Positions 1,294-24,426 of a stretch of 54,263 nucleotides of DNA are shown in pieces. The DNA is from Acidimicrobiia bacterium (GTDB lineage: Bacteria; Actinomycetota; Acidimicrobiia; IMCC26256; PALSA-610). Below the pieces are notes generated by a model that was not told where the DNA came from, ran no database searches, and worked only from the letters and a program-made list of their open reading frames with translations. The position numbers and the translations under genes were made by a program. The stretch's first letter is position 1, and the number at the start of each line of letters is the position of its first letter. Location: contig JADGOO010000037.1 of assembly GCA_017882905.1 (NCBI GenBank), positions 1-54,263 of the forward strand. Reading direction: 5' to 3'.

Positions 1294-1779
1294 TCAGCCG
1301 AGGTACAGCACGAGGCTGCCGGCGCCGTAGCCCTCGACGGCGACCTCGTAGGCGCGCCGTCCACGCGGCTGGCGCCACAGCTGCTTGAGCTCATCCGTCA
1401 GCTGGCCCGGGAGCACATGCACCGTTCCAAGGCGCAGGTGCTTCGTGAACTCGCAGTTGAGGCACGTCGCCATGACGTTCAGCACCTCTCGGAAGCCTTC
1501 GAGGCTCGCGTCGAGCACGATGCGCTTCTCGTTGGCTTCCTGCACCGACGCCGCGGCGGCCTCGACCAACGCACCGCCGACCGAGTTGGCCACTGCCGGG
1601 TCGGCGTAGCCGATCACCGCGAGCTGGCCGTCGTCGGTCACGTACTCGGCGAACACTCCGGTCGCGTCGCGCTCAGGGTCGGGGGCATGCGTGCGCTTGA
1701 CACGCGTCGGCGCCGACGCGAGGTCCCCGAGCAACGTCTCGATGGCGTGCTCGTCGGGAGCCGGATAGTTCGTGGCCAT
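1294..1779 (-). CDS. 161-aa CheC/CheX-like protein with ExxN motif, paired with CheY
   Basis: No named family is recognised with certainty. The 161-aa soluble protein is a clear paralogue of the 161-aa product at 23468-23953: both start with a helix containing LLGDL and end with Y-x-V-x-V-x-x-YGAG-x-L. Helix 80-105 contains E98-V-L-N101, the ExxN spacing used by CheC, CheX and FliY phosphatases to hydrolyse CheY-P, and the segment before it (VIGYADPAVANSVGGALVE) could match the strand-helix preceding that motif. I infer a divergent CheC/CheX-fold protein acting on the adjacent receiver. It starts 6 nt after the upstream cheY stop and is the last gene of the minus-strand operon. Confidence 0.6.
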   Translation of the reverse strand: MATNYPAPDEHAIETLLGDLASAPTRVKRTHAPDPERDATGVFAEYVTDDGQLAVIGYADPAVANSVGGALVEAAAASVQEANEKRIVLDASLEGFREVLNVMATCLNCEFTKHLRLGTVHVLPGQLTDELKQLWRQPRGRRAYEVAVEGYGAGSLVLYLG

Positions 1780-1785
1780 GATCTG

Positions 1786-2145
1786 CTACACGAACGGAGC
1801 GAGGCACCGCGTGAAGTCGTCGGCGCCGAACGGCTTCGTGATCATGAAGGCCGCTCCGGCGTCGAACGCCCGGTCCTTGAAATCGGGAGAGCTCTCGGAG
1901 GTCACGAAGCCCAGCGGCACCGTGACGCCCTCGGCGCGCAGCGCCTCGAGGAGCTCGATGCCGGTCATCTCCGGCATGTTCCAGTCGGACAGGACTACGT
2001 CGGGTGCCGCGGCGCGGATCGCTTCGAGCGCCTCGCGCCCGTTCTCGGCTTCGACGATCTCGCAACCTTCGAAGCCGGCCTGCGCGACATGGCGTTTCAC
2101 GATCATTCGCATCGCGCGACTGTCGTCAACGATCAAGATCTTCAT
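1786..2145 (-). CDS. cheY: Chemotaxis response regulator CheY
   Basis: This stand-alone receiver domain of 119 aa has all catalytic residues: the acidic pair D7-D8, phosphoacceptor D54 in SDWNMPEMTG, T82 in FVTSE and K104 in TKPF. CheY proteins are phosphorylated by CheA and carry the signal to the flagellar switch. The start overlaps the stop of the upstream cheX-like gene by 4 nt (ATGA at 2142-2145), implying translational coupling of receiver and phosphatase. It is one of three CheY-like proteins here; the one at 5449-5823 shares the DWNMP core. Which of them drives the switch cannot be told from sequence. Confidence 0.92.
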   Translation of the reverse strand: MKILIVDDSRAMRMIVKRHVAQAGFEGCEIVEAENGREALEAIRAAAPDVVLSDWNMPEMTGIELLEALRAEGVTVPLGFVTSESSPDFKDRAFDAGAAFMITKPFGADDFTRCLAPFV

Positions 2146-2627
2146 GCGATCACCGCTGCTTTGCTCGCGCGCTCGTAGATCTCCACGGAGAACACCGATG
2201 CGCCACGCTGATAGGTCACGCCGACCGCCGGAGTCGCCCCGGGGATCCCGAGCAACAAGTGCGACCCCTGCACCACGGTCGGCAGCGACAACGCTGTCGT
2301 GGCAGGGAGGAGCGGTTTCACATTGCCGGCGATCATGTTCGCGAGCTCGCCGAGTGCGTCGGCGAGCTCGTCGGCGGCCACACGGTCGACCTCGCAGCCG
2401 AACATCGCCGCGGCGGCTTCGTTGCCGATGCTCTCGTCGCAACCGATCACGAGCGCTCCCGACCACTCGCCGGTGAACTGCACCGAGGCGCCGATCGCAC
2501 AACGCGATGGCGTCACGTCGGAGACCGCATCGCGCGGCGCGATCTCACCGAGGTCGAGGCCGAGCATCATGCTCGTTGCTCCTTCGACGATCTCGGCGAG
2601 GTCGGGCTCACTCACGGTGACGTGCAC
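2142..2627 (-). CDS. cheX: CheX-type CheY-P phosphatase
   Basis: This 161-aa protein matches the CheC/CheX/FliY phosphatase fold. The catalytic helix 86-100 carries E94-L-A-N97 followed by MIAGNVKP, the family ExxN signature, and it is preceded by strands with the pattern FTGEWSGALVIGCD. CheX removes phosphate from CheY-P; no CheZ or separate CheC is seen here. The GTG start at 2627 is preceded by a strong AGGAGG six nt upstream. The stop overlaps the next cheY by 4 nt. An alternative call is a divergent CheC; the single ExxN motif and the length favour CheX. Confidence 0.75.
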   Translation of the reverse strand: MHVTVSEPDLAEIVEGATSMMLGLDLGEIAPRDAVSDVTPSRCAIGASVQFTGEWSGALVIGCDESIGNEAAAAMFGCEVDRVAADELADALGELANMIAGNVKPLLPATTALSLPTVVQGSHLLLGIPGATPAVGVTYQRGASVFSVEIYERASKAAVIA

Positions 2628-2654: not shown

Positions 2655-3428
2655 CTAGGTCGCCGGCTCGAAGATCTCACTGATGCGGATGGCGAACTCG
2701 TCGTCGACCACCACGATCTCGCCACGTGCGATCGGAGTGCCGTTCACGAGCACGTCGACCGGTTGGTTGGCGAGACGATCGAGGTCGATCACTGCGCCGG
2801 AACCAAGAGCCAGGACGTCGCGCACCGTCATACGGCAGCGCCCGATCTCCGCCGTGACGCCCATCTCGACGTCGGCGAGCACGAGCGGCGATTCTCCGGC
2901 CAGCATGATTCGGCCCGGCTGCGAGGTGCGACCACGGCCCGGCGTCGCGCGCGGCGCTGCTTCGGGCGCCTCATCGGCCGCGCCGAGGAACGCCACGAAG
3001 CACGCCACCGGCTGTGTGCCGTCGAGGATCGGGAACACGACCAGCTCGGCCGCGCCGGCCAACCAGTCGAGATCGCGTTCGAGCGCGCGCTGCACGTCGA
3101 GTCGCTGCGAGGCGACCGAGCCGAGCGTGACGGCCGCGGCTTCGAGACCGGGCCGGCACGCGCTGGAGAACATCTCGTCGGCCGCGGAGGCCTCGAGGGA
3201 TTCTCCGAACGCCGCGGTTGCGACGACGGCCACGCTGCCCGCCGCGACTCCGTCGCTGGTGAACGACATCACCACGACGCGCAGATGGTCGTCGCGGAGC
3301 ACGTCGTGGACCGAGGCGCGGGGCATTCCCACCGCGAGGATCGTGTCGGGTCCGAGCGCGTCCTCGAGCGCGGTCACGCAGGCCAGCGGCGCGCCTGGGT
3401 CGGCCAAGAGTGCGGGCGACAACGTCAT
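2655..3428 (-). CDS. FliN-family switch protein, second copy
   Basis: This 257-aa protein is a paralogue of the fliN product at 13441-14316. The last 80 residues form a SpoA (FliN/FliM C-terminal) domain: DVEMGVTAEIGR, MTVRDVLAL, GAVIDLDRLANQPVDVLV and NG-x-x-IARGEIVVVDDEFAIRI. The first 170 residues form a separate domain shared with the paralogue (ILAVGMP, then a strand-helix pattern and VVFPILDGTQPV), distantly like the CheC/FliY fold but without an ExxN motif. FliN builds the C-ring. The ATG at 3428 was chosen for its GGAGG and because the shared domain begins just after it; upstream residues of the open frame look non-coding. Its place inside a chemotaxis operon suggests a CheY-P-contacting or alternative C-ring subunit. 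Confidence 0.82.
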   Translation of the reverse strand: MTLSPALLADPGAPLACVTALEDALGPDTILAVGMPRASVHDVLRDDHLRVVVMSFTSDGVAAGSVAVVATAAFGESLEASAADEMFSSACRPGLEAAAVTLGSVASQRLDVQRALERDLDWLAGAAELVVFPILDGTQPVACFVAFLGAADEAPEAAPRATPGRGRTSQPGRIMLAGESPLVLADVEMGVTAEIGRCRMTVRDVLALGSGAVIDLDRLANQPVDVLVNGTPIARGEIVVVDDEFAIRISEIFEPAT

Positions 3429-3501
3429 TGGGAAGTTCCTCCAAGCCGACCATTCGTGAATCGGCACAGAACAAGGCTGGTTGAGAGGCAGATCGGGTGC
3501 A

Positions 3502-4317
3502 TCAGCGGGGCCGATACCAGATGGCGCGGCCTTCACGCTCCGTGACATAGCCGTCGTGGACGTTCGACAGGGTCTCGGCCGACCCGAGGAAGAGGTAGCC
3601 ATCGGGAGCGAGCACGCGCTTGATCCTGTCGAGCAAGGTGCGCCGTGTCGGCACGTCGAAGTAGATGAGCACGTTGCGCAGGAATACGACGTCGAAGCGG
3701 TCGAGCGTCGGCCAGGGCGCGATGAGGTTCAGCTGCGCGAAGTCGACCATCGCCCGGAGCTCCGGCTTGACCCGCCACGCCAGCCCGTCGCGATCGAAGT
3801 GCCGGCTGAGCATGTTCGCGGGGAGGCCCCGGTTCACCTCGAGCTGGGTGTAGCCCGCGGAGCGCGCCTTTTCGAGGACGGTCTCGGTGATGTCGGTCCC
3901 CCAGATCTTCGCGTCCCACCTGGCCATGTCGGGTATCTGTTCGCGCATCACCATCGCGATCGAGTACGCCTCCTGGCCGGTCGATGCGGCGGCGCTCCAC
4001 ACGCGCAGTCGGTGGGTCGCAGCCCTCGAGCGCGCGAGCGCGGGCAGTACCGCGTCGGCCAACCCGCCGAACGGGTGCACATCGCGAAAGAACGATGTCT
4101 CGTTCGTCGTGAGCGCTTCGACGACCTTCGTGCGCAGCTCCGGGGAGCCTCGACGCAGCTGGTCGACCACGGCACTGATGTCTTCGAGCCCGGCGGCCCG
4201 GGCGACCGGCGAAAGGCGCGCCTCGATCAAGTAGTTCTTGTTCTCGCCGAGCACGATCGCGGCTTCGCGCTTGATGAGCTCGCGCACGTAGAGGAGATCG
4301 GAGCTGGAAGCGGCCAT
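3502..4317 (-). CDS. cheR: Chemotaxis protein methyltransferase CheR
   Basis: CheR transfers methyl groups from S-adenosylmethionine to glutamates of chemoreceptors. The 271-aa product has the N-terminal helical domain (1-75), the TNETSFFRD loop, a SAM-binding motif reading VWSAAASTGQEAYSIAM, an acidic strand end (IWGTDI), and FLRNVLIYFD followed by YLFLGSAETL, all characteristic of CheR. The start at 4317 shares one base with the cheB stop (TGATG), so the long upstream open frame is not coding. No C-terminal receptor-tethering TPR region is present. Confidence 0.93.
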   Translation of the reverse strand: MAASSSDLLYVRELIKREAAIVLGENKNYLIEARLSPVARAAGLEDISAVVDQLRRGSPELRTKVVEALTTNETSFFRDVHPFGGLADAVLPALARSRAATHRLRVWSAAASTGQEAYSIAMVMREQIPDMARWDAKIWGTDITETVLEKARSAGYTQLEVNRGLPANMLSRHFDRDGLAWRVKPELRAMVDFAQLNLIAPWPTLDRFDVVFLRNVLIYFDVPTRRTLLDRIKRVLAPDGYLFLGSAETLSNVHDGYVTEREGRAIWYRPR

Positions 4318-5435
4318 CAGCTCGTCCTCGCGCGCAGCTCGGCCGGGCGAACGGTTGGGCGAACGGCCGGGCGGCCGATCGCGGTGCGGCGCACGAGCTC
4401 GGGCACGACCTCGGCGAGCGGCAACACGCGCTGGGCGAGACCGGCACGCACCACGGTGCCCGGCATCCCCCACACCACGCTGGTCTCTTCGTCCTGGGCG
4501 ATCACAAGACCACCCGCATCGGCGATCGCCTGTGCGCCACCCGACCCGTCGGTGCCCATGCCCGTGAGCACGAATCCACATACGTGCGAGCCGAACACGG
4601 CGACCGCCGAACGGAACAACGGATCGGCGGAAGGTCGACACGAGTGCTCAGGGGGCGCGTCGTTCAGCACGGTCACGACCTTCGTACCGACACGTGCCAC
4701 TTCGAGATGACGACCGCCGGGCGCGATGTAGACGTTGCCGGCAAGCACCGGCTCACCGGCGACGGCCTCGCGCACGTGCACGTTCGCGGCACGGTCGAGC
4801 CGCTCGGCGAGCAGCCGGGTGAACGTCGGCGGCATGTGTTGCACCACGAGGATCGGCACGCCGATCTCGCGAGGGATGGCCGGAACGATGTCTTCGAGCG
4901 CTCGGGGACCGCCGGTCGACACAGCCACGACGACGCAGTCGACGCGCTGCGCCTGGCGCGGCGCAGGCGAGGCGCCGCGCGGTCGCACCGCCGGGAGACC
5001 CGGTGCGCCGGGCGAGACACGGGCGGCGCGAGCGCCGAGGGCGAGCAGCTTCGGGATGAGCGAGCCGCGCACCTGCGCGCGCGCCCCGGTGAGGCCTCCC
5101 GGCCCACTGGGCTTGGCCACGAAGTCGGATGCGCCGAGCGAGAGCGCTTCGAGCGTGGCCGCACCACCCTCCACGGTCAGCGTGGAGAACATGACGATCG
5201 GCAGCCGCGGGTGCTCCCGGCGCAGCGCGGCGACCGCCTCGAGCCCGTTCATCACGGGCATCTCGACGTCGAGCGTCACCACATCGGGGCGCAGCTCGTT
5301 GGCGAGCTCGACGGCCCGACGGCCGTTCTCGGCGATCCCCACAACGCTCAGGCCGGGCTCGTTGTTGATCACGTCGGCGACCAGACGGCGGATGACGGCC
5401 GAGTCGTCGGTGACGAGCACCTTGATGTCTCTCAC
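4317..5435 (-). CDS. cheB: Protein-glutamate methylesterase CheB
   Basis: This 372-aa protein has the usual two CheB domains. The receiver (1-125) has the acidic pair D10-D11, phosphoacceptor D56 in TLDVEMPVMNG and K at FVAKP. An alanine/proline-rich linker joins it to the C-terminal methylesterase (about 165-350) with the serine in VVAVSTGGP, the histidine in VVQHMPP and the aspartate in LTGMGTDGS. CheB demethylates and deamidates receptors, opposing CheR, and is activated by CheA phosphorylation. It overlaps cheR by one base and lies 13 nt after cheY. CheD is not seen in the window. Confidence 0.94.
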   Translation of the reverse strand: MRDIKVLVTDDSAVIRRLVADVINNEPGLSVVGIAENGRRAVELANELRPDVVTLDVEMPVMNGLEAVAALRREHPRLPIVMFSTLTVEGGAATLEALSLGASDFVAKPSGPGGLTGARAQVRGSLIPKLLALGARAARVSPGAPGLPAVRPRGASPAPRQAQRVDCVVVAVSTGGPRALEDIVPAIPREIGVPILVVQHMPPTFTRLLAERLDRAANVHVREAVAGEPVLAGNVYIAPGGRHLEVARVGTKVVTVLNDAPPEHSCRPSADPLFRSAVAVFGSHVCGFVLTGMGTDGSGGAQAIADAGGLVIAQDEETSVVWGMPGTVVRAGLAQRVLPLAEVVPELVRRTAIGRPAVRPTVRPAELRARTS

Positions 5436-5448
5436 GGCTGCCTTGGCT

Positions 5449-5823
5449 CTAGGTGGCCGAGGCGCGCACGAGGGCGACCTTGTCGGCCAGCACTTGCGGG
5501 GTGAACGGCTTCATCACGTACTCATCGGCACCGGCAGCGAGCGCGGCGTCGATGCTTTCACTCGACGTCTCACTCGTCACCATGATCAAGGACATCGCCT
5601 CGTAACAACGCTCGCCGCGAACGGCCCGCACGAACTCCACGCCGGACATCACGGGCATGTTCCAGTCGACGAAGGCCACATCCGGAAGCGGCGCGGATTC
5701 GAGCGCTGTCAGGCCCTCGGCACCGTTGCCCGCTTCTGTGAACTCGTCGAAGCCGCATTCGAGGAGCGCGCGGCGCAAGATCATGCGCATCGCCCTCGAG
5801 TCGTCAACGATCAGCGCCCTCAC
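5449..5823 (-). CDS. cheY: Chemotaxis response regulator CheY
   Basis: This 124-aa stand-alone receiver has a complete catalytic set: D7-D8 in IVDDSRAMR, D53 in FVDWNMPVMSG, a threonine in MVTSET and a lysine in YVMKPF. The GTG at 5823 was chosen because GGAGG lies seven nt upstream; an in-frame ATG eight codons earlier would place that Shine-Dalgarno inside the gene. It follows the receptor gene by 88 nt and precedes cheB by 13 nt, a classical adaptation cluster. It is close in sequence to the receiver at 1786-2145, pointing to duplication. Confidence 0.9.
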   Translation of the reverse strand: MRALIVDDSRAMRMILRRALLECGFDEFTEAGNGAEGLTALESAPLPDVAFVDWNMPVMSGVEFVRAVRGERCYEAMSLIMVTSETSSESIDAALAAGADEYVMKPFTPQVLADKVALVRASAT

Positions 5824-5911
5824 CGATACCTCCGAGTAGCCGCCCACCGGCTCATCGAGCAGCCGATCGAGCGCGTTTCGTGTCTTGGTCCCTCACGGCG
5901 GTCCGTACTGC

Positions 5912-7468
5912 TCAGATCTCGAACTGTCCCACGAGCTCGCGCAGGCTGAGCGACATCGACGCGAGATCGCCGGCCGAAGCGAGGGTCTGACTCGCGCCTT
6001 GCGCGGCTTCTTGCGCGGCGGTCGCTACGCCAGTGATGCTGCGCGCGATCTCGGCCGTTCCGCTGGCCGCTTCGCTGATACTGCGGCCGATCTCGTTCGT
6101 GGTGACCGATTGCTCTTCCACCGCCGCCGCGATCGCGCTCTGGAGCGCATTGATGCGATCGATGATCGTCATGATCTCGCCGACCGATCCGATCGCCTGG
6201 CGAGTGTCGGCCTGGATGGTGGTGATCCGCTGCGAGATGTCCTCGGTGGCCCGCGTGGTGCTCGATGCGAGCTCCTTCACCTCGTTGGCGACCACCGCGA
6301 AGCCCTTGCCGGCATCGCCGGCCCGAGCGGCTTCGATCGTCGCGTTGAGCGCAAGCAGGTTCGTCTGCTCGGCGATCGATGTGATCACGCCCACAACGTT
6401 GCCGATCTCGGTGCTGCTGTGATCGAGCCGACCGATGTTGTCGTTCACCGTCTGCGCCATCGACGCGGCCTCGAGCGCCACACCGGCAGCGTCGCTCGCG
6501 CTCTTCGAGATCTCGTTGATGCTCGCCGAGAACTCCTCCACCGCGGCCGCGACCGTGTTCACGATCGCGCTGACCTGCTCGCTCGCGGCGGAGACCACAC
6601 CCGACTGCGTCGAGGTTTCTTCGGCGCTTCCGGCCATCTGATTGCTCACGGCCGAGAGCTCGTCGGACGCACCCGCGAGCGTCTGCACCGTGGCGTCGAT
6701 CGTGCCAAGGGCGTCACGCATCGCGCGCAGCGCAGTGTTGAGCGACGTGGCCATCTCGCCGATCTCGTCGTCCGAGGTGACATCCAGCTCGGTGGAGAGC
6801 TTGCGCTTTGCCACATCGCCGAGGAGCCCGACGGTCTTGCGCAACGGCACTGTGATGGACCGGCTGATCCGCCATCCGAGGAGCACCACGATGGCCGTGG
6901 CGATCAGGATGGCGACGACGATCTCACGCTTCGTGGTGTCGGCCGTGGCCTGCGAGGTTCGCGCGATCTGAGCGGCCTGATCCTGGAGATGCTTCGAGAG
7001 GGAATCGATCCTCGGCGTCACGTCGTTGAAGGCTTGTTGAAATGCATCGAGCGTGGTGTTCCCGGTCGCAGCCGTGTTCGCCGCGGCGACGAGCGCGGCA
7101 ATCGGCGCTTCGAGGTCACCTGCCTCCCGGCTCAACGCCGGTGACACATTGGCGGCCTTGACCTCGGCGACCTTGGCCACCAGCGTCGCTTGGTCGTCGT
7201 GGAGCGCCGCGATCGCCGGATCGTGCTGCGGCGTGCCGGCGTAGCGCTGCGCCATGAGCACATCGGACTGGACGTTGTCGTGCGACGCGTCGACCTCGGC
7301 CATCGCCGCCTGGCCGCTGTTGGCCGCTTCCACACCGCGCAGCCCGCTGCTCATCGAGTTCGTTCCGCGGGTGCCGACCACGCCGACCACGAGGCCGACG
7401 ACGAGCGCGAGCGCGCTCAGTGCCGCGAGCTTGCGAGCAACGGTCCAGCGCAGCTTGGTGAAGTTCAT
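5912..7468 (-). CDS. Methyl-accepting chemotaxis protein
   Basis: This 518-aa transmembrane receptor has a basic N-terminus and first membrane helix (about 10-33), an alanine-rich periplasmic helical sensor (about 35-180), a second membrane helix ([16 protein letters not shown]), a HAMP domain and a cytoplasmic coiled-coil. The signalling hairpin tip reads [18 protein letters not shown], nearly invariant in MCPs, followed by [15 protein letters not shown]. The ligand is unknown. No C-terminal CheR-tethering pentapeptide is present. The ATG at 7468 gives a normal inner-membrane start with GGAG upstream; the longer open frame upstream is antisense to cheA. It is the first gene of the minus-strand operon and has a sigma-28-like promoter at 7519-7545. 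Confidence 0.93.
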
Positions 7469-7518
7469 GTGATGCTCCGTCCACGGGCGGTCTCGACCGC
7501 CACTGAGATTCGGAGCCC

Positions 7519-7545
7519 TCATCGGAATCGCCGGTCTGCACCTGA
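7519..7545 (-). promoter_or_regulatory. Candidate sigma-28 promoter for the MCP-cheY-cheB-cheR operon
   Basis: Reading the minus strand, TCAGGTGC (7545-7538), an 11-nt gap and TCCGATGA (7526-7519) follow the layout of the flbD and flhA sites. The receptor start codon is about 50 nt further on. Confidence 0.5.
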
Positions 7546-7684
7546 GGGCTGCCGGTCGCCGTTGTTGGACGAGGCCATACTCGTTCAACGTCCTCAGCAA
7601 TGGCGTTCGGCCGACGATGAATCCGCCATCGAGTGCCGGTGGGGCACCGTCACGAAGCGCGCGGCGCGTGAGCTGAGGAGACCG

Positions 7685-10018
7685 ATGGACGAGGAGACCG
7701 ACGAGCTGCTCGCCGAGTTCCTGGTCGAGAGCTTCGAGAACCTGGATGAGATCGACCAGGACCTCGTGAGCCTCGAACAGACGCCCGATGCGACCGACAT
7801 CCTCCAGCGGATCTTCCGCGCGTTCCACACGATCAAGGGCACCTGCGGGTTCCTCGGATACGAGACGCTCGGCGCCGTCACCCACGCGGCGGAGACGCTG
7901 CTCGCGCGACTGCGCGACGGTGCGATGGCGTACGACGCCGAGGTCGCCAGCGCGCTCCTGCGGTCGACCGATGCCGTTCGTGAGCTGCTCACCGTGATCG
8001 AGCGCACGAAGGAAGAGGGTTCCGACGAGCACCTCGACCTGATCGCCGAGCTCCACCATCTGGCCGAGCGCACCGCCGCGCACGACGCGGCTCCTTCGAC
8101 CGACGTCCAGCTCCAGGCCGACGACGACGCCGAGCCGGGCCCCCGCCTCGGTGAGCTCCTCGTGGAGCGGGGCGTGACCACCGAGGCCGACGTCGCGATC
8201 GCGTTGGTCCGCCAGGCCGACCTCGGCGATCCTCGCCCGATCGGCGAAGTGCTCATCGACGCCGGCGCCGTCGACCCTGAAGACGTGCGCTCCGCGCTGT
8301 CGAGCCAGCAGCACACGCGCGCCGCCGACGCCACGCTACGCGTCGACGTGAGCCTGCTCGATTCGCTCGTCACGCTCGTGGGCGAGCTCGTGTTGACCCG
8401 CAACCAGATCCGCCGACTCACCGGCAACGACGGCGTCGACAGCACACTGGTGATCGCGGCCCAGCGGCTCAATGGCGTGACCGCCGAGCTCCAGTCGCAC
8501 GTGATGAAGACGCGCATGCAACCGATCGGCGCCGTGTGGTCGAAGCTGCCGCGCATCGTGCGCGATCTCGCCGTGCAGTGCGAGAAGGCGATCCGAGTCG
8601 ACATGCACGGTCAGGGAACGGAGCTCGACAAGGCGATCGTCGAAGCCATCCGCGACCCGCTCACGCACATGGTCCGCAACGCGGTCGACCATGGCATCGA
8701 ATCACCGGCAGAACGGGTCGCCGCCGGCAAGCCCGAGGAGGGCGTGCTCACGTTGCGTGCGTTCCACGAGAGCGGCAACGTGCACATCGAGATCGCCGAC
8801 GACGGTCGCGGCATCGACGTGACCAAGGTCAAGGCGAAGGCGGTGCGCCAACAGCTCATCACCGAAGACCAGGCCGCGCGGATGACGGACCGCGAAGCTG
8901 TGGATCTGGTCTTTCGGGCCGGCTTCTCGACCGCGGAAGCCGTGAGCAACCTGAGCGGACGCGGCGTGGGCATGGATGTGGTGCGCACCAACATCTCGCG
9001 CATCGGCGGCACCGTCGAATGCGACAACCACCCGGGTGCCGGGACCACGTTCAAGGTCAAGATCCCACTGACGCTCGCGATCGTGCCCGCGTTGATCACG
9101 CGTGGCGGCGGCGAACGATTCGCCGTGCCGCACGCCAACCTCGTGGAGCTCGTCGGCCTCGGCACCGAGTCGAGCCGCGCCATCGAGTCGGTGCAGGGCG
9201 CACCCGTCTACCGACTGCGCGACCGGATGCTGCCGATCGTGCACCTCAACGCGGAGCTGAACCTCACGCCGCCCGCGTCGGACACGCGCCGGAGCGCCGG
9301 CACGATCGTTGTCCTGCGGGCCGACGGTCATGAGTTCGGTCTCGTGGTCGACGAAGTGATCGACACCGAGGAGATCGTGGTCAAGCCCTTGCCGGCGCAC
9401 GTCGACGCCGTTCCCGTCTTCAGTGGGTGCACGGTGATGGGCGACGGTGACGTTGCGCTCATCCTCGACGTTCGCGGCATCGCCGAGGTCGCCGGCGTGC
9501 TCGATCCGGACGGCGCGGTCAACGCGAACGCGGAGACCACCACGACCGAATCCAACTCAACCGCCGACCCCGTGCTCATCGTGCGCGTCGACGCGACCAC
9601 GCGGGCTGCCCTCGCGCTCGACAACATCGAACGGCTCGAAGTGTTCGATCCGACGCGCGTGGAGCTCGCGGCCGGCCATCCGGTCGTGCAGTACCGAGGC
9701 GCGCTGCTCCCGTTGCTCGATCTCTCCGCCACAGTCGGAGCCGCAACACAACGCGATTCGAGCGACGAGCTCGTGGTCGTGGTGTACGCCGACGGCCACC
9801 GCTCGGTGGGCCTGGTGATCGAGCGCGTCGTCGACATCGTGGAAGAGCACACGACGAACTACGAGGTGCCGTACCGCTTCGGCGTCGTTGGTTCGACGAT
9901 CGTTCGAGGCGACGTCACCGACCTGATCGACGTCGCCGCACTCGTCGACGCGATGCCGGCATCGTTCGCAGCACTGGTGAACGGCGCGATCCAGCTGGAG
10001 GCAAGCGATGCAGTCTGA
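7685..10018 (+). CDS. cheA: Chemotaxis histidine kinase CheA with GspE-N-like domain and two CheW domains
   Basis: This 777-aa CheA begins with an HPt domain (1-105; phosphorylated H48 in [13 protein letters not shown]). Residues 152-210 form two repeated helical hairpins ([10 protein letters not shown]..., [11 protein letters not shown]...) resembling the N-terminal domain of GspE/PilB ATPases and occupy the place of the usual P2 domain. Then come the P3 dimerisation helices (about 217-285, [15 protein letters not shown]), the HATPase ([29 protein letters not shown]; about 325-465), and two CheW-like domains in tandem (about 465-605 and 625-770). CheA phosphorylates CheY and CheB on receptor signals. 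The ATG at 7685 starts the HPt directly; upstream frame is antisense to the MCP. The stop overlaps cheW by 11 nt. Confidence 0.93.
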
Positions 10019-10448
10019 ACGAACGCTGTGCACACTCCTGGTCGACGACCAGCTCTACGGCGTGGACGTGCTCCGCGTGCAGGAGATCATTGGCGAACAA
10101 CGGCTCACACCAGTGCCGCTGGCCAGCTCACGGGTGGTCGGCCTGTTGAACCTGCGCGGCGACATCGTGCCGGCGATCAGCTTGCGCGGCACGCTCGGAC
10201 TCGCGCCCGCCAAGCCCGGCACGAAGTGCGCGCACGTAGTCTTGCGCACCCGCGACGGCCTGGCCAGCGTGATCGTCGACGCGATCGGTGATGTGCTCGA
10301 AGCCGACGAAGCGCGGTTCGAGGAGCCGCCCGACACGTTGTCCGGCAGCTCGCGCGAGCTCGTCAGCGGAGTGCTCAAGCTCGATGACCGCCTCTTGCTC
10401 GAGCTCGACGTCGATCGCGTGCTCGCGGTCGATCGTCGCGCGGCCTGA
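10008..10448 (+). CDS. cheW: Chemotaxis coupling protein CheW
   Basis: This 146-aa CheW domain links receptors to CheA. It shows the two SH3-like sub-barrels: LCTLLVDDQLYGVDVLRVQ at the start, VPLASSRVVGLLNLRGDIVPAISL (split here by its conserved NLRG), and a second half with VVLRTRDGLASVIVDAIGDV and SGVLKLDDRLLLELDVD. It overlaps the cheA stop by 11 nt and precedes a receptor gene by 15 nt, so cheA, cheW and the second receptor are one transcription unit. Length is normal for the family. Confidence 0.92.
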   Translation: MQSERTLCTLLVDDQLYGVDVLRVQEIIGEQRLTPVPLASSRVVGLLNLRGDIVPAISLRGTLGLAPAKPGTKCAHVVLRTRDGLASVIVDAIGDVLEADEARFEEPPDTLSGSSRELVSGVLKLDDRLLLELDVDRVLAVDRRAA

Positions 10449-10463
10449 GAAACGGAATTCGAC

Positions 10464-12416
10464 ATGGAGAACGTCTTTCATCCCGCGGAACGGTTCATGG
10501 CCCGCTTCAACCTGGGCGTGAAGTTCATGGTGTTGGGCGCGATCCTCCTCGCACCACTGGCCTACGTCACGTGGCAGTACCGCAACGCCCGTGAGTACAA
10601 CGTTCGCATTGCGATCGACGAGCATCACGGCAACACCTACATGGCGCCCGCGATCGGGCTCTTCAGTGCCGAGGTCGACGCGCGCAGCGCCGCGGTGCGC
10701 GGCGCCGATCGCTCCGCGATCGATCAGGCGATCCACCAACAGGTAGCCGCGATCGACTCGATCGTGGCGCGCTACGCCAAGCAGTACACGAACGAGAAGT
10801 CGTGGGCCGCGGCGAAGCAGGCCTTGAGCGCCGCCCAGGCGGCCACCGGCGACCCGGCCGCGGTGTTCGCGCAATGGAACGCGGCCACGCTGGCGCTCTA
10901 CACCGACATCCAGACGGTGTCGGGCGGTTCGACGCTGGTGCTCGATCCGCAGCTCGACACGTACAACATGATGGACGCGAACACGAACCGCGCCCTGCTC
11001 GTGATGGACACCGGCGGCCAAGCGGCCGACTTCGCCACGATGGTGAGCCGCGGCCAGACTGCACGCTCCCAGGACGAGGTCATCCAGCTCGCCTCGCTGC
11101 AGAGCAACACCACCACGCCGCTCGGTGTGATCGACGGCGAGTACGACGCGGCCTACGGCGCCACCAAGTGGAACGGCCTGAAGGCGGCCGTCGATCCCAG
11201 CCGTCGCCGGCTCGACGCCTCGACCGGCGCGCTGGTGACCGCAGCCGGCGGCTTCCTCAAGCACGCCAAGACAGCCGACTTCGCCACGCTCGGCGCGGCG
11301 GTGCGCGCCGACGCATCGGCGCTCGCGGTCCACGGCATCCCGGCGCTCGATCGCCTCCTCGACCAGCGCATCACCGGCTTCCGCGGGCCCGAACACCGCG
11401 TGTACCTGGTGTTCAGCCTGTTCGTCGCGCTCGCCCTGTACCTGTTCGTTGCCATGATCCGCTCGGTGCGCAACGGGATGCGCCGAGTGCTCGGCGCGCT
11501 CGAGGCTGCGGCCGACGGTGACTTCACCGCCAAGGCCGACGTCGACACGAACGACGAGATCGGCGCGACGGCCCGGGCGATCGATCACATGCAGGAACGC
11601 GTGTGCGTGGCGATTGCCGACGTCGCCGAACGCGCCGAGGTCCTCGCGATCGCGGCGGGATCCGTGGCCGACGCGTCGGGCCGGATCGCCACCGCGGCGC
11701 AAGGCACAGCCGAAGAAGCGGCGCGCTCGGCCGAGCACGCCACCGCCGTCGGAGGCGATGTCGAGAGCGCCGAGGGTGGCACCAACCAGCTCGGTGCAGC
11801 CATCTCCGAGATCGCGCAGAGCGCGACCGCGGCAACCATCGTCGCCGGTGAGGCGGTCGAGACCACCCGATCGGCCGAGGCGACGATCTCGTCGCTCGCC
11901 CGGTCGTCGGCGGAGATCGACGACGTGATCGCGCTGATCACCACGATCGCCGACCAGACGAACCTGCTCGCCCTGAACGCCACGATCGAGGCGGCCCGCG
12001 CCGGCGAGGCCGGTCGCGGCTTCGCGGTGGTGGCCAACGAGGTCAAGGAGCTCGCGGCGCAGACTCAGCACGCGACCGACGGGGTCCGCCAGCGCGTCGC
12101 CGAGATCCAGTCCGACTCACAGGGCGCCGCCCGGTCGATCGCGCTCATCACCGACGTGGTCGACAAGGTGAGCAGCTACCAGACCACCATCTCGTCGGCC
12201 GTGGAGGAACAGACCGCCACGACCCACGAGATCGCGTCGACGTTCGAGCGGATCGTGCAGCGGAGCCGTGACATCGGCGAGGCCATCGACACGGTGGCGA
12301 GGCTCGCTCAGGCCACCGATGACGACTCCGCCGCGCTGACCGCCGACGCCGGGCGGCTGTCCGACGAGGCAGCCGGTCTGCGCGAGCTGATCTCGCGCTT
12401 TCGCGTCGCAGTCTGA
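10464..12416 (+). CDS. Methyl-accepting chemotaxis protein
   Basis: This 650-aa receptor has a first membrane helix at about 20-38 ([17 protein letters not shown]), a large helical extracytoplasmic sensor (about 40-310), a second helix near 312-332 ([19 protein letters not shown]), a HAMP domain with the [13 protein letters not shown] pattern, and an MCP signalling domain whose tip reads [18 protein letters not shown] followed by [15 protein letters not shown]. The sensor is much larger than in the receptor at 5912-7468, so a different ligand is likely. No terminal CheR-binding pentapeptide is seen. It follows cheW by 15 nt and precedes fliM by about 50-110 nt, depending on the fliM start. 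Confidence 0.93.
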
Positions 12417-12453
12417 GTCGACCCGAGCACCCCCGAAAGCGCTGCTCCTGCCC

Positions 12454-12480
12454 TCAGGTCGGCGTGGGGGCCGCCGATCG
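12454..12480 (+). promoter_or_regulatory. Candidate sigma-28 promoter within the operon, before fliM
   Basis: TCAGGTCG (12454-12461), an 11-nt gap and GCCGATCG (12473-12480) fit the same layout as the other candidate sigma-28 sites. Transcription would begin near 12487, which would exclude the longest fliM start (GTG 12464) for this transcript. Confidence 0.45.
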
Positions 12481-12487
12481 GGTGAGC

Positions 12488-13408
12488 GTGGCAACCGCGA
12501 CCAGCCGGAAAGGCGCAAAGCCGGGTGCGATGGCATTCGACTTCCGCCGGCCGAACAAGTTCAGCCGTGATCACGTCCGGGCCTTCCAGATCGTGCACGA
12601 GACCTTCGCCCGCCAGCTCTCGACAGTGCTGGCGACCACGCTCCGCGCGGTCGCGCACGTGACGCTGACCTCCGTCGAGCAGCTCACCTACGACGAGTAC
12701 GTGCGGTCGCTGCCGAACCCGTCGTACATGGTGATCCTGTCGCTGAACCCGCTTCCCGGCGCGGCCGTGCTGCAGCTTCCGCTTCCGATCGCGTTTGCGG
12801 CGATCGACCGGCTGCTCGGCGGTAGCGGCGACGCGCTGAGCCCGAAGCGTCCGCTCACCGAGATCGAGAGCAACCTGATGCGCGGCCTCGTCGGCCGGGC
12901 GCTGCGCGAGCTCGAGTACGCCTACGAGACGCTCGTGCGCGTCGAAGTCGAAGTCGTCCAACAAGAGTTCAACCCGCAGTTCGCGCAGATCGCCGCGCCG
13001 AGCGACATGGCCTTGGCCGTGAACTTCGAGACGCGCATCGGCGAGAAGCGCGGAACGTCGAGCATCTGCATCCCGCACACAACGATGCAGCCGGTGCTCG
13101 AGAGCCTCGCAAGTCAACAGCTCTTCGCCGACCGCTCGAGTCGCGACCCCTACGAGTGGGCGCGCGCGCTCGAAGAGGCGATCGGCGGCGTGTGCGTGGA
13201 GCTCGCGGTGCGGTTCGAATCGGTTGCGCTCGCGTCGCAGGAGATCATCGACCTGCAAGTGGGCGACATCGTTCCCCTCGAACACCCCGTCGACCAGCCG
13301 CTGACGGTCTCGGTCGGCGACGTGCCCTGCTACGAGGTCGTCACCGGTCGGCGCGGCAAGCGCCTCGCCGGACTCGTCGTCGGCAACCACACCACCAGAT
13401 TGCGCTGA
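12488..13408 (+). CDS. fliM: Flagellar motor switch protein FliM
   Basis: FliM forms the middle of the C-ring and normally receives CheY-P. The core is clear: FDFRRPNKFSRDHVRAFQIVHETFARQL, which I shorten to its FDFRRPNKFS start and HETFARQL end; then VEQLTYDEYVRSLPNP, DRLLGGSGD and the C-terminal SpoA-like domain (DIVPLEHPVDQPLTVSVGDVP). The conserved N-terminal CheY-binding peptide of the EIDALL type is absent, also when the frame is read back to 12419. The start is uncertain: GTG 12464, 12482 and 12488 and ATG 12530 are in frame. I list 12488 because a sigma-28-like box would start transcription there; none has a good Shine-Dalgarno. It is followed 32 nt later by fliN. Confidence 0.85.
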   Translation: MATATSRKGAKPGAMAFDFRRPNKFSRDHVRAFQIVHETFARQLSTVLATTLRAVAHVTLTSVEQLTYDEYVRSLPNPSYMVILSLNPLPGAAVLQLPLPIAFAAIDRLLGGSGDALSPKRPLTEIESNLMRGLVGRALRELEYAYETLVRVEVEVVQQEFNPQFAQIAAPSDMALAVNFETRIGEKRGTSSICIPHTTMQPVLESLASQQLFADRSSRDPYEWARALEEAIGGVCVELAVRFESVALASQEIIDLQVGDIVPLEHPVDQPLTVSVGDVPCYEVVTGRRGKRLAGLVVGNHTTRLR

Positions 13409-13440
13409 GGCGAAGCCGTGTCACGAGCAGTAGGAGCCAG

Positions 13441-14316
13441 ATGAGCATCATCGGCGAGCTGTCGAGCAACAACCAGGTCGCGATGGCCGTGGCCGCGGCG
13501 CTCGAACAGGCGATGGGCAGCGATGTCATCCTCGCTGTCGGCCTGCCGAAGAACGTGCCGCCGACCGTCGATCACCTCCCCGCGGGTGACGTGCGGGTCG
13601 TCACCGGCGAGATCGTCTCGGGTGCCGACGGTGGCGTGCACCTCGCGCTTTCGAGCGACCTGGCCCGTCTCCTCGAGCGGCGCGCCGACGACGAAGAGCT
13701 CACCACCGCACTCGGAGGCGTGTTCGACATCACCGCCACGGCGATGGCGCGCGTCGACGGCATCGACCTCGCGTTCGACGAGCCGATCGAGACGCCGGCC
13801 GACGAGCTCACCGCGCCGGCCGAGGCCGACCACCAGTTCCTCGTGTACCCCTTGCTCGACGGGACCGAGCGCATCGCCACACTGGTCATCGAGATCGGCG
13901 CGCCCATGAGCGCAGCCGACCCGATGGTCCCCGAGACGCCCCTGGTGCGTGGCGTGTCGGCAGTCGCCGCCGCGCCCGTTCCGCACCGCCCCCAGGTGCA
14001 GCCCGAGCACGTGAGCACCCACGAGTTCCCGCCGCTGCACGACACCGCCATCTCGCTCGTCGACCCGCGGCCGCTCTCGCTGCTGCACGACGTGGAGATG
14101 GGTGTGACCGCCGAGCTCGGACGCCGCCGCATGACGGTGCGCGACCTGCTCGGCCTGGCACCCGGCGCCGTGATCGAGCTCGACCGCGCGGCCGGCAGCC
14201 CCGTCGACGTGCTCGTGAACGGCACGCTGATCGCCCGCGGCGAAGTTGTCGTGATCGACGAAGAGTTCGGGATTCGCGTCTCGGAGATCGTCGCCGGCGG
14301 AGAAGTGACGGTCTGA
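13441..14316 (+). CDS. fliN: Flagellar motor switch protein FliN (long form)
   Basis: This 291-aa protein ends in a SpoA domain (about 210-290: LLHDVEMGVTAELGRRRMT, GAVIELDRAAGSPVDVLVNG, IARGEVVVIDEEFGIRVSE), the C-ring base subunit FliN. Ordinary FliN is about 100-140 aa; here some 170 extra N-terminal residues form a domain shared with the paralogue at 2655-3428, followed by a proline/valine-rich linker. The extra domain has an alternation of strands and helices that could be CheC/FliY-like, but the helix ELTTALGGVFDITATAM lacks the E and N of the ExxN motif. The ATG at 13441 has TAGGAG at a good distance. fliO follows after 4 nt. Confidence 0.88.
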   Translation: MSIIGELSSNNQVAMAVAAALEQAMGSDVILAVGLPKNVPPTVDHLPAGDVRVVTGEIVSGADGGVHLALSSDLARLLERRADDEELTTALGGVFDITATAMARVDGIDLAFDEPIETPADELTAPAEADHQFLVYPLLDGTERIATLVIEIGAPMSAADPMVPETPLVRGVSAVAAAPVPHRPQVQPEHVSTHEFPPLHDTAISLVDPRPLSLLHDVEMGVTAELGRRRMTVRDLLGLAPGAVIELDRAAGSPVDVLVNGTLIARGEVVVIDEEFGIRVSEIVAGGEVTV

Positions 14317-23467: not shown

Positions 23468-23953
23468 TCAGCCGACGAGGATCGCGAGCTTGCCCGCGCC
23501 GTACTCGTCGACGGTCACGTCGTAGTCACGCCGTGCCGCAGGCTCACGCACGAACGCGTTCGTGGCGTCGGGCAGCTCGCTCGTGGTCGTCTGCACCTCG
23601 TGCCAACGCAACGGAGCGAAGTCCTCGTGGTTGAACAACCGCGCGGCGACCTTGACGATCTCGCTGAGGTTCTCGAGGTTCTGCGCGTCGACCTGGCCCG
23701 ACTTCACGGCTTGTTCCACTGCGGTCGGCGCGACCATCGTCAGGGCGGCGCCGAGCGCGTTCGACAGGCGCAGGTCGGTGATGCACATCGCCCCGACACC
23801 GCCGTCGTCGTCGCGGTAGTCGGCCATCACCGCGGCCGTCTCGGGCTCGAGCACGAGCGGGTCGCCGGCGACCACGGTCACCGAGCGGCCCAGCAGGTCG
23901 CCGAGGAGCTCGCGGATGGCTTCCGCCTTCGGAAACGGGTGCGTGGTGGGCAT
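23468..23953 (-). CDS. 161-aa CheC/CheX-like paralogue lacking the motif asparagine
   Basis: This 161-aa soluble protein is a paralogue of the product at 1294-1779, with identical length, LLGDL near the N-terminus and YGAGKLAILVG at the C-terminus. At the positions equivalent to E98-V-L-N101 of the paralogue it has E98-I-V-K101, so the asparagine needed by CheC/CheX-type phosphatases is replaced by lysine. If the fold assignment holds, this copy would bind a receiver without dephosphorylating it. As in the first locus it lies downstream of a CheY-like gene, here with an 89-nt gap. Function is otherwise unknown. Confidence 0.6.
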   Translation of the reverse strand: MPTTHPFPKAEAIRELLGDLLGRSVTVVAGDPLVLEPETAAVMADYRDDDGGVGAMCITDLRLSNALGAALTMVAPTAVEQAVKSGQVDAQNLENLSEIVKVAARLFNHEDFAPLRWHEVQTTTSELPDATNAFVREPAARRDYDVTVDEYGAGKLAILVG

Positions 23954-24042: not shown

Positions 24043-24426
24043 TCAGCGCCGGGCGCCCACGTGGGCGAGCGCTTCCACGAGCGCAGCTCGCGTGAAGGGC
24101 TTCGTCACGCAGTCATCGGCGCCGGCCGCCGCGGTCGCCTGCCCCGTGCCGGCGGGCGCAGTCGCAGTCGTGAGCATGACCACCGCCACGTGACCGGCAC
24201 CGTCGCGTTCGCGTACCGCCTGCGCGAGGTCGGCGCTGTCGGCGTCGGCGAGGTTGTCGTCGAGGAGGGCCAGCTGCGGGAGATCGGCCGCCCCGCAGGC
24301 GGCGAGGCTGTCGAGCGCGCTCTGGGCCGTCGGTGCCTCGATCACGTCGTCGTAGCCGCACTCGTGCAGCACGCGCTTGAGGACCGTCCGCATCGCCTTG
24401 GAGCTGTCGACGACCATCGCACGCAT
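24043..24426 (-). CDS. Divergent CheY-like receiver protein
   Basis: This 127-aa stand-alone receiver keeps the phosphoacceptor (D56 in LALLDDN), a threonine (near 86-87) and the lysine (K109 in VTKPF), but the acidic pair reads D7-S8 instead of D-D, and the usual MP-x-M-x-G after the phosphorylation site is missing. The second acidic residue normally holds Mg2+, so phosphorylation may be weak. The N-terminal helix (SSKAMRTVLKRVLHECGYDD) is clearly related to the receiver at 5449-5823. A sigma-28-like promoter precedes it at 24476-24502, placing it in the motility regulon with the 161-aa protein downstream. Confidence 0.82.
   Translation of the reverse strand: MRAMVVDSSKAMRTVLKRVLHECGYDDVIEAPTAQSALDSLAACGAADLPQLALLDDNLADADSADLAQAVRERDGAGHVAVVMLTTATAPAGTGQATAAAGADDCVTKPFTRAALVEALAHVGARR

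Follow-up and report, generated by a model that had tools for sequence, protein, structure and literature searches.

The stretch analysed here, which we call the window throughout, is positions 1 to 54,263 of contig JADGOO010000037.1 of an Acidimicrobiia bacterium (home genome G000, 4.36 Mb in 259 contigs). It carries two FliN paralogues, each with a large domain in front of its SpoA domain, together with a FliM that lacks the N-terminal peptide on which phosphorylated CheY (CheY-P) docks. Motor switching is taken to begin with the binding of CheY-P to that peptide. A sequence-only reading of the window had placed the paralogues, correctly, in the chemotaxis operon (FliN1) and in the export operon (FliN2), and the genes that matter most for what follows are these:

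2655..3428, minus strand: FliN1, 257 residues, che operon; dead CheC/CheX-like N-domain predicted at about 2949-3428, SpoA domain at about 2670-2879 (residues 184-253).
13441..14316, plus strand: FliN2, 291 residues; dead CheC/CheX-like N-domain predicted at about 13441-13910, then a linker, SpoA domain at 14080-14292 (residues 214-284).
12464..13408, plus strand: FliM, starting with GTG at 12464 or 12482 and stopping at 13408; without an N-terminal CheY-docking peptide.
2142..2627, minus strand: CheX (PF13690), with ExxN present as GELAN.
1786..2145, minus strand: CheY2, a receiver of the UNK-linked type, without Tyr at the position of E. coli 106.
1294..1779, minus strand: UNKa, of an unnamed, putatively CheX-like family (here UNK), with a conserved ExxN, REVLN.

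FliN2 directly follows FliM on the plus strand, and around FliN1 the order is cheR, FliN1, CheX, CheY2 and UNKa, all on the minus strand. Exactly three SpoA domains occur in the home genome, namely those of FliM, FliN1 and FliN2.

Both paralogues score above the NCBIfam FliN cut-off (TIGR02480, C-terminal SpoA; 97.4 and 98.9 versus 84.05 bits) and miss the 218-bit threshold of the FliY equivalog model NF005995 (84.9 and 103.2), and the named neighbours found with the FliN alignment belong to Acidimicrobiia and other Actinomycetota. Sequence searches against Pfam, NCBIfam and the PDB matched the SpoA halves and left the N-parts unmatched. As a query, FliN2 matches the N-part of FliN1 alone (residues 13-167; E 1.2e-8, 33% identity), the identity between the two N-domains is 30%, and their sequences indicate that the N-parts are homologous, beyond chance. 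About 170 extra residues had been estimated for each protein, which is close; the actual numbers before SpoA are 183 in FliN1 and 213 in FliN2, with about 150-157 folded and the remainder linker. A linker motif before SpoA (F..[LIMFY] or [YL]P.L) is enriched (84/157 versus 17.5 expected) and was judged not informative.

AlphaFold2 modelled FliN2 from 24 aligned sequences with a predicted local distance difference test score (pLDDT) of 93.4 and a predicted template modelling score (pTM) of 0.86, and FliN1 from 12 with 90.0 and 0.85; pLDDT values of 90 and 93 rule out disordered N-extensions. Foldseek matches at E <=0.001 (36 for FliN2, 18 for FliN1) were all CheX, CheC-like, FliY or FliM structures. 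In VIA-align, the top match of both models was CheX 1squ (FliN2, Z 14.4, root mean square deviation [rmsd] 2.7, 137 aligned; FliN1, Z 13.2, rmsd 2.9, 135 aligned), with scores of 12.7 (rmsd 3.5, 154 aligned) and 11.8 (rmsd 3.6, 148 aligned), respectively, against CheC 1xkr, and Z 10.8 (rmsd 3.9, 152 aligned) and 10.2 (rmsd 3.6, 143 aligned) against Thermotoga maritima FliY 4hyn. All 27 entries per model with Z >7 are CheX, CheC, FliY or FliM (FliM middle domains). Because every strong match lies in these families and the first unrelated entry has Z 3.8 with both models, the sequence-only guess of a CheC/FliY-like fold is confirmed; structure prediction and comparison with FliY were among the checks it had proposed, and neither disorder nor an unrelated fold was seen. 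Judged by these models, FliN1 and FliN2 are FliN subunits of FliY architecture with a CheC/CheX-fold N-domain.

The guess had also been that the domain lacks ExxN, and the alignments agree. The ExxN helix of actinobacterial FliY (SALGESMNQMMG) aligns to SSACRPGL in FliN1, GES-MN lying opposite C-RPGL; FliN2 reads TTALGGVFDIT (GGVFD) at this position, and neither the catalytic E nor the N is kept in the N-domain family alignment. The ExxN phosphatase motif is thus lost from both proteins, and the neighbouring CheX retains it; a PF04509 search of the home genome found no CheC. The CheX phosphatase, the best structural match of both modelled N-domains, differs from them in having the catalytic residues and in not being fused to SpoA. 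Like FliY of Bacillus subtilis and T. maritima, FliN1 and FliN2 combine a CheC-fold N-domain with SpoA, and the gene lies beside fliM; unlike it, they have neither ExxN nor an N-terminal EIDALL peptide and fall under the FliY equivalog cut-off. In Campylobacter, Helicobacter and Leptospira, the available text of PMC6946799 describes a FliY without phosphatase active sites that coexists with a second FliN; the partner FliN there has no such domain, whereas here the dead domain is present in both copies, one of them in the che operon. At the same locus (L068 4245-6366), the order-mate G017 has a true FliY bearing two ExxN helices, and its FliM carries an intact docking peptide, LSQTEIDALL. CheD and UNK are both absent from this genome.

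FliN1 clusters with the copies of G002, G008 and G013, which all belong to a sister genus, g3 (bootstrap 99), on a branch of length 1.52 as against 0.43 for FliN2, and the tree marks it as an old, fast-evolving duplicate. At least two FliN-type genes occur in 12 genomes of our survey of the class. By analogy, the best functional precedent for FliN1 would be FssF of Caulobacter crescentus, a second FliN needed for switching and not for assembly, whose authors, in the available text, propose subfunctionalisation into assembly and switching (PMC11580411). Like FssF, FliN1 is a second FliN paralogue unpaired with FliM; FssF has 103 residues, whereas FliN1 carries a CheC-like domain and is encoded within a che operon, and an FssF-like role for it would be one by likeness.

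That FliM lacks a CheY-P docking site, as the sequence-only reading had it, was borne out twice: no upstream frame of the window FliM contains an EIDALL-type N-terminus, and a DNA pattern for Q..EID.LL gave zero matches across the whole home genome. The absence is widespread. Only 1/62 FliM open reading frames (ORFs) in the class survey has the peptide; among named contigs, FliM of Cellulomonas, Cellulosimicrobium, Phycicoccus and Mobilicoccus lacks it and one Thermoleophilia FliM has it. In a FliM tree of 159 rows (a quick tree with long branches), a clade of 121 rows (Shimodaira-Hasegawa approximate likelihood ratio test support, 96) comprises 118 without the peptide, 2 with a degenerate one and 1 with it. 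Remnant peptides, EIDSLI and EIEGLI, occur inside the peptide-less clade (L181 3078-4454; G452, L276), which suggests more than one loss.

The peptide also follows the class of chemosensory system. According to section 8 of PMC10746217, from which we took the definition of the F5 class, CheD marks F1 systems; the same source reports a switch from F1 to F5 in the lineage of Acidimicrobiia, Nitriliruptoria and Actinomycetia. FliM is named twice in the available text of that source, and our literature search found no description of a peptide-less FliM in Actinobacteria or of the UNK family. Among 70 chemotactic genomes, the peptide is kept in 29/29 with CheD (26 full, 3 degenerate) and absent from 39/41 without it; for Acidimicrobiia, this set took in 24/27 genomes with at least two CheW matches, G303, G348 and G354 (<80% complete) being left out. 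Loss of the peptide thus tracks the published F1-to-F5 switch, as a correlation. A CheA with an extra CheW domain, in A-W order, is the F5 criterion and is found in the window, whose chemosensory system is, by its gene content, F5-like:

7190..10018, plus strand: CheA, with two CheW domains (F5 signature); true start probably internal.
10008..10448, plus strand: CheW.
3502..4641, minus strand: CheR; true start probably internal, at about 4310.
4317..5435, minus strand: CheB.
5449..5847, minus strand: CheY1, CheB-linked and canonical, with Tyr at 106.

UNK could be assigned to no family in Pfam or NCBIfam, the CheX model PF13690 matched 0/15 members, and a PDB profile search with the family gave no match. 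Its E98 and N101 are kept in 14/15 aligned rows, the exception being G002, which has no CheW. UNK occurs in 39/80 genomes searched, among them 33/39 chemotactic genomes without the docking peptide and 0/6 with it (G017 and five CheD-positive genomes, a further 24 CheD-positive genomes and G397 lying outside the search). A CheY gene lies upstream on the same strand in 40/41 matches inspected, with CheX between in seven of these; in G002, the sole exception, UNK directly follows FliN1. CheY and UNK are fused in a single ORF in six genomes (G317, G202, G288, G394, G255 and G343), and in G331 a FliM carries UNK at its N-terminus, behind CheX and CheY (L345 1626-3182). This fusion is a second FliM gene, in a che locus. 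The UNK-linked CheYs have Tyr at position 106 in 0/41 rows (one locus counted twice) and Phe in five, and CheY1 of the window has Tyr; for both the numbering and the role of Tyr106 we presume what holds for Escherichia coli CheY. From these sequences, UNK is a candidate for the link from CheY-P to the motor, either as an adaptor or as a phosphatase bound to the switch.

On balance we lean towards a reading in which both paralogues would be C-ring FliNs of a dead-FliY type, FliN1 would act in an FssF-like manner, the N-domain would not be a general docking site, and CheY-P would pass through UNK or a site common to F5 systems. FliN2, beside the only FliM, would most likely be the structural ring subunit, as its position and conservation suggest; FliN1, in the CheX-CheY2-UNKa operon, would most likely be a minority, signal-facing subunit of the same ring. 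The N-domain would be a vestige of an ancestral phosphatase-type FliY, now probably serving packing or partner binding. The docking peptide would have been lost where the chemosensory system went from F1 to F5, and CheY-P would more likely reach the motor via UNK, or via a site present in every F5 ring, for instance the SpoA domain of FliN or the middle domain of FliM; the direct CheY-FliN contact reported for E. coli (Sarkar 2010, as cited in the available text of PMC7534056 and PMC11580411) offers a site that each of these rings would have. The peptide is missing from a large actinobacterial clade that takes in Cellulomonas, Cellulosimicrobium, Phycicoccus, Mobilicoccus and Acidithrix (the last with a short FliN), yet the members of the clade that are chemotactic encode complete pathways. 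The route of CheY-P to such a motor becomes testable, with UNK, the FliN N-domain and the FliM/FliN core as the three candidate sites, and species exist in which one or another of these is missing.

Several observations weigh against this reading. The likeness of UNK to CheX is weak: HHalign places ExxN on ExxN with E 5e-4 and a probability of 31%, six reversed or shuffled nulls giving E >=0.15. UNK is also present in 4 of 21 flagellates that have no CheW, and two of the four (G206 and G255) have good assemblies. Two CheD-negative chemotactic genomes, G397 and G017, keep the docking peptide, and the correlation between CheD and peptide is strongly clustered by descent, so that it reflects few evolutionary events and not 70 independent ones. 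Among genomes at least 90% complete, the N-domain is commoner with any CheW than with none (23/36 versus 5/17, p 0.037, kinship ignored), as would be expected if it served as a docking site. Finally, the three g3 genomes, which are metagenome-assembled genomes (MAGs), give no CheW match and have FliN1-type copies outside che operons; because of this, the role of FliN1 is not chemotaxis alone everywhere.

Of the rival explanations, the most probable, although we put it somewhat short of an even chance, would make UNK a second phosphatase for CheY-P in addition to CheX, kept at the switch in the manner of Bacillus FliY, with CheY-P docking on the SpoA domain of FliN or the middle domain of FliM. 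The conserved ExxN, the CheX neighbourhood and the weak profile match with ExxN on ExxN are consistent with this, as is the CheY-FliN contact reported for E. coli. However, most of these loci already have a CheX, and a phosphatase by itself leaves unexplained why UNK tracks peptide-less FliM.

Under the more tentative adaptor proposal, a CheY-family receiver would bind UNK, and UNK in turn would dock on the C-ring of F5 motors, standing in for the FliM peptide. The complementary distribution of UNK and peptide, extending to the absence of UNK from peptide-keeping G017, argues for it, as do the six CheY-UNK fusions, the UNK-FliM fusion of G331 at the site of the lost peptide, and the neighbouring positions of UNK and FliN1 genes in G002 and the window. 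Against it, the conservation of ExxN in 14/15 rows suggests catalysis rather than docking, the peptide-bearing sample comprises only 6 genomes, six peptide-less chemotactic genomes have no UNK, and the single FliM fusion is in a MAG. A shade more speculative is the fuller version, in which UNK, either as the partner of a dedicated CheY or fused to it, and in one case fused to the N-terminus of FliM, would link CheY-P to the C-ring in F5-type actinobacteria without the peptide, and FliN1 would be the ring subunit dedicated to this module; if true, this coupling would be a new way to connect chemotaxis to the flagellar motor.

We consider it unlikely that the N-domain of one or both paralogues binds CheY-P but does not hydrolyse it, and so stands in for the FliM peptide, along the lines of the sequence-only reading. 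Both models do match the CheX chain of the Borrelia CheX-CheY-BeF3 complex 3hzh (FliN2, Z 13.2, rmsd 3.0, 138 aligned; FliN1, Z 13.1, rmsd 2.9, 135 aligned), the peptide is absent, FliN1 lies within the che operon, and the any-CheW comparison above points the same way. However, the helix that bears ExxN in CheX is unconserved in the FliN1/FliN2 family, and most peptide-less chemotactic genomes manage without the domain, because in the 38 of 39 CheD-negative ones in which FliN was read, 22 have a short FliN without it and 16 an extended one. The domain also persists in flagellates without CheW. In Acidimicrobiia, extended FliN occurs in 16/26 genomes with at least two CheW matches versus 10/22 with none (p 0.38), or 12/22 versus 5/17 at >=90% completeness (p 0.19); on the tree, the N-domain and chemotaxis do not change together: the domain needs 2 changes and chemotaxis 9, and the domain changes in 1 of 8 independent chemotaxis contrasts and is unchanged in 7. 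These classes were set by a rule of length and hydrophobicity, with L063 and L069 set to extended by hand, the FliM-like ORFs of L098, L123 and L110 and genome G062 left out by hand, and G348 and G332 unscored; most genomes surveyed are MAGs. The short FliNs and the survival of the domain in CheW-less flagellates speak against it as a general docking site, and a docking role in this one lineage is possible.

Alternative C-rings built from FliN1 and FliN2, which had also been suggested and for which the two intact SpoA copies and the separate, divergently oriented genes might speak, are set aside as quite improbable, there being one FliM only and the known dual cases in the available texts (Campylobacter FliY plus FliN, Caulobacter FliN plus FssF) being mixed rings (PMC6946799, PMC11580411); we prefer a mixed ring in which FliN1 would have the signalling part.

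In families f24 and f26, which are flagellated, a single CheW domain lies inside a CheA-sized frame of 600-900 residues, and no separate CheW, CheX or (9 tested) UNK was found. Five further genomes (G004, G200, G206, G272 and G298) have flagellar export genes and no CheW at all, which suggests flagella apparently without chemotaxis.

A linkage of FliN1-type genes to PilZ was dropped, being present in 1/3 g3 loci only (L057). At L057 5373-8458 in G002, a genome without CheW, ApbE, PilZ, FliN1-type and UNK genes stand in a row; ApbE and PilZ are both missing from the remaining two g3 loci. At about 13600 of locus L170, also in G002, an FlhA without the first 103 model positions is joined to a flgK/flgL/fliW/csrA region, and neither a FliM nor a second FliN turned up, which points to a deletion or a misassembly of the flagellar cluster.

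The window also holds a second UNK-CheY pair, adjoining the flagellar cluster:

23468..23953, minus strand: UNKb, a second UNK-family copy; ExxN changed to ExxK.
24043..24426, minus strand: CheY3, degenerate, its acid pair changed from DD to DS.

Both changes suggest a pair in decay. Genome G007 likewise has two UNK genes, with ExxN in both.

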